Assembly (NCBI RefSeq): GCF_002154555.1
Contig: NZ_MUNF01000296.1
Coordinates: forward strand, 1 to 40,590
Direction: 5' to 3'
Length of the DNA: 40,590 nucleotides
From: Streptomyces murinus
Lineage (GTDB): Bacteria > Actinomycetota > Actinomycetes > Streptomycetales > Streptomycetaceae
Numbering within the stretch: position 1 is the stretch's first letter; every line of letters starts with the position of its first letter. Below the pieces are notes generated by a model that saw only the letters and a list, made by a program, of their open reading frames with translations, made no database searches and was not told where the DNA came from. This document shows positions 19,316 to 20,338 of the stretch, piece after piece. Made by a program: the position numbers and the translations under genes.

Positions 19316-20338
19316 TCAGAAGTCCCAGTCGTCGTCGGCGGTGTCCTCGGCCTTGCCCATGACGTAGGAGGAACCGGAGCCGGAGAAGAAGTCGTGGTTC
19401 TCGTCCGCGCCCGGCGAGAGCGCCGCCAGGATCTCCGGGTTGACCTCGGTCTCCGCAGCGCCGAACCGCGCCGGATAACCCAGGTTCATCAGCGCCTTGT
19501 TGGCGTTGTAGCGGACGAAGACGGCCACGTCGTCCATCAGGCCCAGCGGCTCGTACAGCTCGCCCGAGTACCGCATCTCCAGCGCGTACAGCTCCTCCAG
19601 CAGGGCGTACGTGAACTCCCGCATCTCCTCCTGCCCGGCCGGCGTCAGCTTCTCCAGGCCGCGCCGGTACTTGTAGCCGGAGTAGTAGCCGTGCACCGCC
19701 TTGTCCCGCAGGATCAGCCGGATCATGTCGGCCGTGTTGGTGAGCAGCGCGTGGGTCGAGAAGTGCAGCGGCAGATAGAAGCCCGCGTACAGCAGCAGGG
19801 ACGACAGCAGGGTGGAGGCCACCTTGCGCTTGAGCGGGTCGTCGCCGTAGTAGTGCGCGAGGACCGTCTTGCAGCGCCGCTGGAGGATGTCGTTGCCGAC
19901 CGCCCAGCGGTAGGCGTCGTCGATCTCCGGGGTGGTGGCGAGGGTGGAGAACACCGAGGAGTAGCTGCGGGCGTGCACCGCCTGCATGAAGGCGATGTTG
20001 GTGTACACCGCCTCCTCGTGCTCGGTGCGCGCGTCCTGGATCTGCACGATCTCGCCGACGGTCGCCTGCACCGTGTCCAGCATGGTCAGACCGGTGAACA
20101 CCCGCATGGTCAGGGTGCGTTCCTCGGCGCTGAGCCGCTGTCGCCAGGCGCCGAGGTCGTTGGAGAGCGGGACCTTCTCGGGCAGCCAGAAGTTGGCGGT
20201 GAGCCGGTTCCACACCTCCAGGTCCTTCTCGTCGGTGACCCGGTTCCAGTTGACCGGGCGTAGCCGGGCGGCGGGGTCGTGCCGGTAGGACGGCGGTGTG
20301 ACCGACAGTTCGGTCAGGGGCGCGGGGGTGGTGGTCAT
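19316..20338 (-). CDS. nrdF: Ribonucleotide reductase beta subunit NrdF, metal-free QSK type (class Ie)
   Basis: 340 aa, ATG with GAGGA 8 nt upstream. The N-terminal [18 protein letters not shown] and DNA-order nrdI-nrdE-nrdF identify the class Ib/Ie family. Aligned with Salmonella NrdF, the six metal ligands D67, E98, H101, E158, E192 and H195 fall at D88, Q119, H122, S179, K213 and H216, all at a constant offset of 21. The radical Tyr105 is Tyr126 (ARSYSS). I checked the codons: CAG for Q119, TCG for S179, AAG for K213. The Gln/Ser/Lys set is the published QSK signature of R2e, which holds no metal and uses a tyrosine-derived DOPA radical made with NrdI. Confidence 0.95.

Follow-up and report, generated by a model that had tools for sequence, protein, structure and literature searches.

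In Streptomyces, the class Ia ribonucleotide reductase (RNR) genes nrdABS reportedly stand under the control of a B12 riboswitch, as described by Borovok in 2006. In Cutibacterium (P.) acnes, nrdAB and nrdDG are preceded by cobalamin riboswitches and nrd boxes, and a shut-down of these genes in the presence of B12 has been proposed (PMC3848588). Class Ie RNRs of the VPK type, known from Mesoplasma, Streptococcus and Aerococcus, depend on NrdI for the formation of a DOPA residue (PMC8463856). The QSK-type radical subunit of Gardnerella vaginalis (R2eQSK) was described as free of Fe and Mn, as acquiring DOPA only with NrdI and as active only with DOPA, the formation of which was helped by NrdH (PMC11846895). 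The same source counted 275 R2eQSK sequences in 266 GTDB genomes, all of them in four orders of Actinomycetota, and the view taken in a first-pass annotation of the present DNA, that R2e proteins come mainly from mollicutes and some commensals or pathogens, thus does not fit the QSK type, for which a characterised actinobacterial member already exists (PMC11846895).

The window analyzed here, a stretch of 40,590 nucleotides from Streptomyces murinus, contains an operon in the order nrdI-nrdE-nrdF on the minus strand behind a cobalamin riboswitch (Table 1). Similar to the G. vaginalis R2eQSK system, it combines a QSK triad, a conserved Tyr and an nrdI gene within the operon, but unlike the nrdHIEF operon of that species (PMC11846895) it lacks nrdH and carries a cobalamin riboswitch. 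The only TIGR02194 (NrdH) match in the entire genome reached 31.6 bits, far under the cut-off of 85.75. The replacement of three metal ligands is shared with the class Ie VPK proteins, which differ from the Streptomyces NrdF in their residue set and in their gene order, nrdFIE (PMC11846895). The logic of a B12-independent RNR behind a cobalamin riboswitch is the same as in P. acnes, where it applies to NrdAB and the anaerobic NrdDG and not to a class Ie enzyme. It is also that of the Streptomyces nrdABS genes, which are present in this genome and likewise combine the riboswitch with an NrdR-like element; these encode a class Ia enzyme, however, at a different locus and without the iron-type palindrome described below.

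Table 1. Coordinates of features in the 40,590-nucleotide window.
Feature	Position	Strand	Evidence or remark
Riboswitch and mmsA operon	3853..9701	+	Riboswitch 88.8 bits
Weak RF00174 match just before CbtA cobalt transporter gene	9782..9906	+	27.2 bits, under gathering score
prpDBC and aceB/aceA groups	12935..17023; 26902..30677		Each by a RamB-like regulator
thiI-like gene, possibly last of operon	18032..19312	-	TIGR00342 310.6 bits; begins 3 bases past nrdF
nrdF, class Ie (QSK) radical subunit R2e by sequence, 340 aa	19316..20338	-	PF00268 271.4 bits
nrdE, catalytic subunit R1	20395..22530	-	TIGR04170 1183.4 bits, cut-off 750; ATGA overlap with nrdI end
nrdI, flavodoxin-like activase	22527..22958	-	TIGR00333 150.6 bits (cut-off 74.65); PF07972 152.6 bits
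Cobalamin riboswitch aptamer before nrdI	23131..23353	-	RF00174 99.3 bits, gathering score 31.5, E 8.6e-24
NrdR-box-like pair over presumed promoter	23349..23396	-	ACACAACATCTGGGGC 23396-23381; GTTCTAGATGTAGTGT 23364-23349
Palindrome TTAGGTATACCTAA, candidate iron-type operator	23409..23422	.	Just upstream of presumed promoter region
metE, B12-independent methionine synthase	23477..25825	-	TIGR01371 1039.2 bits; start codon uncertain
Cobalamin riboswitch upstream of metE	25951..26173	-	RF00174 89.3 bits
Start of apparent PKS/NRPS cluster	34424..40590	-	Runs to contig end; P450, ketosynthase, adenylation, condensation by eye

The nrdF reading frame proposed by the first-pass annotation is real, although it lies on the minus strand, which that annotation had left out. 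The residues it had assigned to the radical site, D88, Q119, H122, Y126, S179, K213 and H216, were all found exactly at these positions, so that the claimed spacings of 31, 3, 57, 34 and 3 hold as well. The radical Tyr126 is kept, and a Tyr occupies this position in every NrdF locus aligned, while the class Ib ligand set D/E-x-x-H/E/E-x-x-H is not intact in the alignment. In an alignment with solved chains, 8rag and 8rah shared the Q, S and K of these columns, in which the class Ib chains 8j4x, 1kgn and 9l6o have E, E and E. The chains 8rag and 8rah were also the top solved relatives of the protein (517 bits; 68% identity to 8rag), with class Ib chains next (460 bits) and 6gp2 at 417 bits. By their QSK residues we take 8rag and 8rah to be Gardnerella R2eQSK structures, and 6gp2 is presumably a class Ie VPK protein. 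Among 33 aligned NrdF loci, which comprise the best-scoring matches, the residue pattern was DQHYSKH in 6 and DEHYEEH in 27. A scan of named genomes, of whose 574 loci the best 80 were retained, gave 63 QSK, 17 EEE and no mixed sets. In a maximum-likelihood tree of 111 NrdF rows (67 QSK, 44 EEE, no VPK), in which the bootstrap was not fully settled, the QSK rows formed a single clade with support of 100/100, and the 11 Streptomyces rows formed one clade within the tree (96/88); one of its labels marks a relative (G152) as riboswitch-bearing although its nrdI is missing. Pairwise dN/dS between the 11 Streptomyces nrdF genes had a median of 0.14 (range 0.07-0.22, 55 pairs), which is purifying selection, and judged by these substitution patterns the gene encodes a maintained protein. 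By every defining feature that can be read from sequence NrdF is thus a class Ie QSK member, as the first-pass annotation had proposed. Given its 68% identity and identical ligand set to the G. vaginalis R2eQSK, we infer that the Streptomyces protein would contain no metal and would carry DOPA at Tyr126.

In the tree, some members of different families have identical or almost identical QSK NrdF proteins (L070, L071 and L073; L084, L087 and L089), examples being Pseudoglutamicibacter cumminsii with Brevibacterium ravenspurgense, and Mycetocola and Brachybacterium with Agrococcus. This near identity suggests recent horizontal transfer, perhaps partly among cheese-surface bacteria.

The partner proteins encoded in the operon appear intact. 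NrdE retains the cysteine, the double-tyrosine (YY) and the C-terminal CxxC motifs, residues with recognized roles in catalytic subunits of this kind, and nrdI, whose presence in the nrdF operon had been claimed before, was recovered above cut-off by both of its profiles. The thiI-like gene that follows nrdF adjoins it also in G206, G280, G277, G152, L063 and L067, and was not found beside nrdF in L064, L065, L066 and L068.

The cobalamin riboswitch named by the first-pass annotation scored well above the Rfam gathering score, lies on the sense strand upstream of nrdI, ending 172 bases before its start codon, and is conserved in orthologous loci. It was present in each of the ten QSK Streptomyces for which the contig includes nrdI (the window, G206, G280, G277 and L063-L068, with L062 being the same genome as G206 and counted once), including L064 and L068, whose fetched flanks contained none of the neighboring island genes that were sought. 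In analogy to other cobalamin riboswitches before B12-independent reductases, which are read as off-switches, binding of cobalamin would shut the operon, and NrdIEF should rise as B12 falls. In the predicted consensus fold of the leader, one stem would lie close to the ribosome-binding site and another, of 5 bp, would by eye compete with the closing helix of the aptamer, but two-sided changes were seen in just 2 of 48 predicted pairs. A scan for terminators in the nrdI leader gave a single minus-strand stem, which lies over the nrdI start, and none wholly between aptamer and gene. In L064 (6688-6811, minus strand) and L065 (6296-6418, minus strand) divergent cobalamin riboswitches stand back to back with that of nrdI; of the five frames tested beside them, four had no NCBIfam match and one, in L065, was SdpA-like. 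Streptomyces sp. AV19 (L068:2090-4453, plus strand) has a further riboswitch about 4.7 kb before that of nrdI, ahead of a BtuC/FecCD-type permease frame that remained below cut-offs.

Outside Streptomyces the riboswitch is rare. A B12 box was absent near the nrd genes in 54 of 56 non-Streptomyces QSK loci (L070 and L071 having little or no upstream DNA), and the riboswitch as a general class Ie feature was therefore rejected; B12 control is a feature of particular lineages and not part of class Ie itself. The two remaining loci were L105, an Acidimicrobiia MAG in which Rfam confirmed the riboswitch, and L113 (Bifidobacterium thermophilum), in which a one-mismatch box near nrdI was not confirmed. 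In L082 and L099, boxes with one mismatch occur on the strand opposite to nrdF at distances of about 9 and 10 kb, and neither genome gave an RF00174 match. When 50 of the 56 non-Streptomyces genomes (L070 and L071 included) were searched completely, using stricter filters that lose some weak matches, RF00174 was found in three (L100, L102 and L105), and as far as tested only the match in L105 sits at nrdI. There, a single riboswitch is followed by nrdI-nrdE-nrdF(QSK)-metE in a row (L105:5334-11664), which looks like one operon for two B12-independent enzymes. Since the place of L105 in the tree is unsure, it is only possible that class Ie was joined to B12 control twice.

In S. murinus the operon lies within a larger B12-independence island, which the first-pass annotation, while right about the riboswitch context, had missed together with the likely iron-type operator. 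The window also holds prpD, prpB, prpC, malate synthase, isocitrate lyase, ECF transporter and CbtA genes, with prpDBC and aceB/aceA, each by a RamB-like regulator, flanking nrdIEF and metE. The enzymes encoded by metE, prp, aceBA and nrdIEF can each replace a B12 route, namely MetH, methylmalonyl-CoA mutase, the ethylmalonyl-CoA pathway and NrdJ. Behind the third riboswitch of the window follow mmsA (methylmalonate-semialdehyde dehydrogenase) and genes for acyl-CoA dehydrogenase, 3-hydroxyisobutyryl-CoA hydrolase, 3-hydroxyisobutyrate dehydrogenase and enoyl-CoA hydratase, enzymes that would also fit a beta-oxidation-like propionate shunt replacing the B12-dependent methylmalonyl-CoA mutase; a riboswitch before mmsA has already been noted in S. 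griseus (PMC8914203). The order of the island is largely kept in G206, G280, G277 and G152, with metE absent from it in G206, and a search for CbtA in the fetched stretches of these four gave no match.

The second regulatory element upstream of nrdI is TTAGGTATACCTAA, a 14-bp palindrome of the form TTAGG-N4-CCTAA. It was found exactly in 7 of the 10 Streptomyces nrdI upstream regions, in altered form in L068 and G280, and was absent upstream of nrdI in L064 and in L105. Nine Streptomyces genomes contained 8 exact copies, three in the own genome, two in G277 and one each in G206, G152 and G013, with none in G280, G005, G007 and G012, where about 0.004 copies would be expected in these roughly 76 Mb at the GC content of the window (72.1%) and where the reversed-pattern control gave none. 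All 8 copies lie at one of three kinds of loci, nrdIEF (three; G000, G206 and G277), the start of a suf operon (three) and a siderophore-interacting protein gene (two), the suf and siderophore-interacting protein stretches being 82-84% identical in DNA between genomes. A divergent gene also starts near the suf site, which may serve that gene. Near nrdAB or nrdJ no site of this type was found at up to 2 mismatches, the sole match, in L061 with 2 mismatches, being about 3.9 kb off. These locations make TTAGGTATACCTAA a candidate iron-type operator of nrdIEF. Its half-sites resemble those of DmdR1 boxes, yet the published DmdR1 box, TTAGGTTAGGCTCACCTAA, has 19 bp (PMC7174319, Table 1) against 14 bp here, which makes the identity of the regulator a guess. 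The 19-bp TTAGGTTAGGCTCACCTAA box itself was not found upstream of nrdI at up to 4 mismatches in Streptomyces L062-L068.

Related palindromes may extend beyond Streptomyces. A classical 19-bp DtxR/IdeR box was not detected within 4 mismatches upstream of nrdI in 55 QSK and 17 EEE loci; in 10 of the 55 QSK loci, compared to none of the 17 EEE loci, the best match to the 19-bp box was so good that no more than 2% of simulated sequences equalled it. A palindrome similar to TTCGG-N4-CCGAA with at most 1 mismatch preceded 10 of 48 non-Streptomyces QSK operons (0.99 expected), 8 of the 56 loci having been dropped for lack of an nrdI match and several of the others being near-copies, compared to none of 17 EEE operons. 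For the wider form TTMGG-N4-CCKAA at up to 2 mismatches, which was chosen post hoc after the scan for the 19-bp box and whose enrichment is thus exploratory, the numbers were 23 of 48 and 3 of 17. Because the motif was selected with the data already in view and the loci are not independent, we consider the TTCGG-N4-CCGAA enrichment a lead only.

Between TTAGGTATACCTAA and the aptamer lie two NrdR-box-like elements, ACACAACATCTGGGGC and GTTCTAGATGTAGTGT, which are poor matches to the NrdR-box consensus (3 and 5 mismatches) and are conserved in the Streptomyces alignment. Upstream of nrdAB nearly the same first element is found, followed by CTAGATGTA as the second, with a spacing of 34 against 35 bases by eye, and the nrdJ stretch has no NrdR-like box at up to 3 mismatches.

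The host genome (7.95 Mb, 99.85% complete) contains three R1 genes. Besides nrdE these belong to a class Ia NrdAB at C1035, which has its own cobalamin riboswitch and by eye an adjoining AraC-type gene, and to the B12-dependent NrdJ at C449 (NF005122, 1637.8 bits), which is preceded by the Rfam nrdJ RNA. MetH, methylmalonyl-CoA mutase and CobM were found above cut-off, as well as a partial IcmF-like frame below cut-off, suggesting that the host probably makes and uses B12 and, together with NrdJ, that a B12-dependent route exists. The presence of NrdJ and of a riboswitch-preceded NrdAB thus marks nrdIEF as a third, accessory reductase. The first-pass annotation was accurate in describing a reductase independent of cobalamin, which here stands besides the B12-dependent NrdJ, but it is not the only one of the host, since the class Ia nrdAB also has a riboswitch. 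R1 genes likewise numbered three in the QSK relatives G206, G277 and G280, compared to two in G152 and in four Streptomyces without QSK, which by score are class Ia and class II, and class Ie therefore appears to have been added to the two reductases usual in Streptomyces.

Taken together, the operon very probably encodes a working class Ie (QSK) RNR that serves as an accessory backup and is expressed at low cobalamin and probably also at low iron. In such an enzyme, reduced NrdI and O2 would yield the oxidant for hydroxylation of Tyr126 to DOPA and for the subsequent oxidation of the DOPA to the radical. The site would hold no metal, Lys213 standing in for the metal ion, and the radical would be transferred to NrdE for ribonucleotide reduction. 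With cobalamin on the riboswitch the operon would be off and NrdJ would be used, while the palindromic operator shared with suf and the siderophore-interacting protein gene may add iron repression and NrdR may add repression at the level of dNTPs. Since nrdAB shares with nrdIEF a riboswitch and a comparable NrdR-like element but lacks the iron-type palindrome, we infer a hierarchy in which NrdJ would operate with B12, NrdAB without B12 but with iron, and NrdIEF without both. Whether this amounts to a double failsafe, with B12 sensed at the RNA level and iron at the DNA level on one operon that is deployed only when NrdJ and NrdAB would both fail, and whether the joining of class Ie to B12 happened twice, in Streptomyces and in Acidimicrobiia, we regard as evenly poised.

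A different weighting of the two signals, in which the enzyme is class Ie but responds mainly to metal starvation, the riboswitch being a by-product of the B12 island with a minor share in expression, is an unlikely though serious alternative. It would agree with the occurrence of the palindrome at suf and siderophore-interacting protein loci, with the exploratory excess of TTCGG-N4-CCGAA-like palindromes in non-Streptomyces QSK operons (10 of 48 vs 0 of 17 EEE) and with the repression of class Ie by Fe and Mn in S. pyogenes (PMC8463856). However, all 10 Streptomyces retain the riboswitch, among them L064 and L068 with none of the sought island genes in the fetched flanks, and so does the Acidimicrobiia MAG.

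Very improbable is a non-functional or decaying acquisition, in which the QSK residues would be marks of lost function and NrdAB and NrdJ would do all the work. The QSK nrdF does occur in no more than 5 of the 295 genomes sampled from the genus (own genome included), and one of these, G152, has lost nrdE or lacks it in the assembly. In this genome nrdF from residue 16 onward directly abuts residue 447 of metE with no N's between (L057:5136-7440), a junction that is either a deletion or an assembly fault; neither nrdI nor nrdE is on the nrdF contig, and the genome has no third R1 gene. Decay is nevertheless difficult to reconcile with the same three substitutions throughout the QSK clade (67 of 67 rows), with the median nrdF dN/dS of 0.14 and with the intact NrdE motifs and NrdI, and QSK was described as the sole RNR in 65 species, with one member active (PMC11846895). 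That the Streptomyces protein despite its QSK set holds Mn, Fe or another metal, or uses a different cofactor, and in practice behaves like class Ib is hardly credible, given that an R2eQSK with which it shares 68% identity was found to contain neither Fe nor Mn and has the same lysine in the site.

The preferred reading, a class Ie backup enzyme under B12 control, joins elements that are individually known, namely class Ie QSK proteins, the RF00174 riboswitch and B12 control of class Ia and class III RNRs; what appears to be new is a class Ie nrdIEF operon with a cobalamin riboswitch and TTAGGTATACCTAA. In line with the first-pass annotation, which had considered this linkage new, no report of the combination was found in the open-access literature searched. 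Two papers there mention class Ie, riboswitches and ribonucleotide reductase together; in one of them the riboswitch passages concern Mn, and the other deals with sample delivery in crystallography. The main text of the R2eQSK study makes no mention of riboswitch, cobalamin or Streptomyces, while its supplement may list Streptomyces sequences (PMC11846895). According to a 2021 review, the conditions under which class Ie is used are not understood (PMC8463856). Candidate conditions can be read from the promoter region described here, namely a shortage of B12 and probably of iron. Standard genetics are available for the genus, the B12-dependent and class Ia reductases of the same cells can serve as internal controls, and the conditions of class Ie use thereby become testable by simple expression and knockout work.
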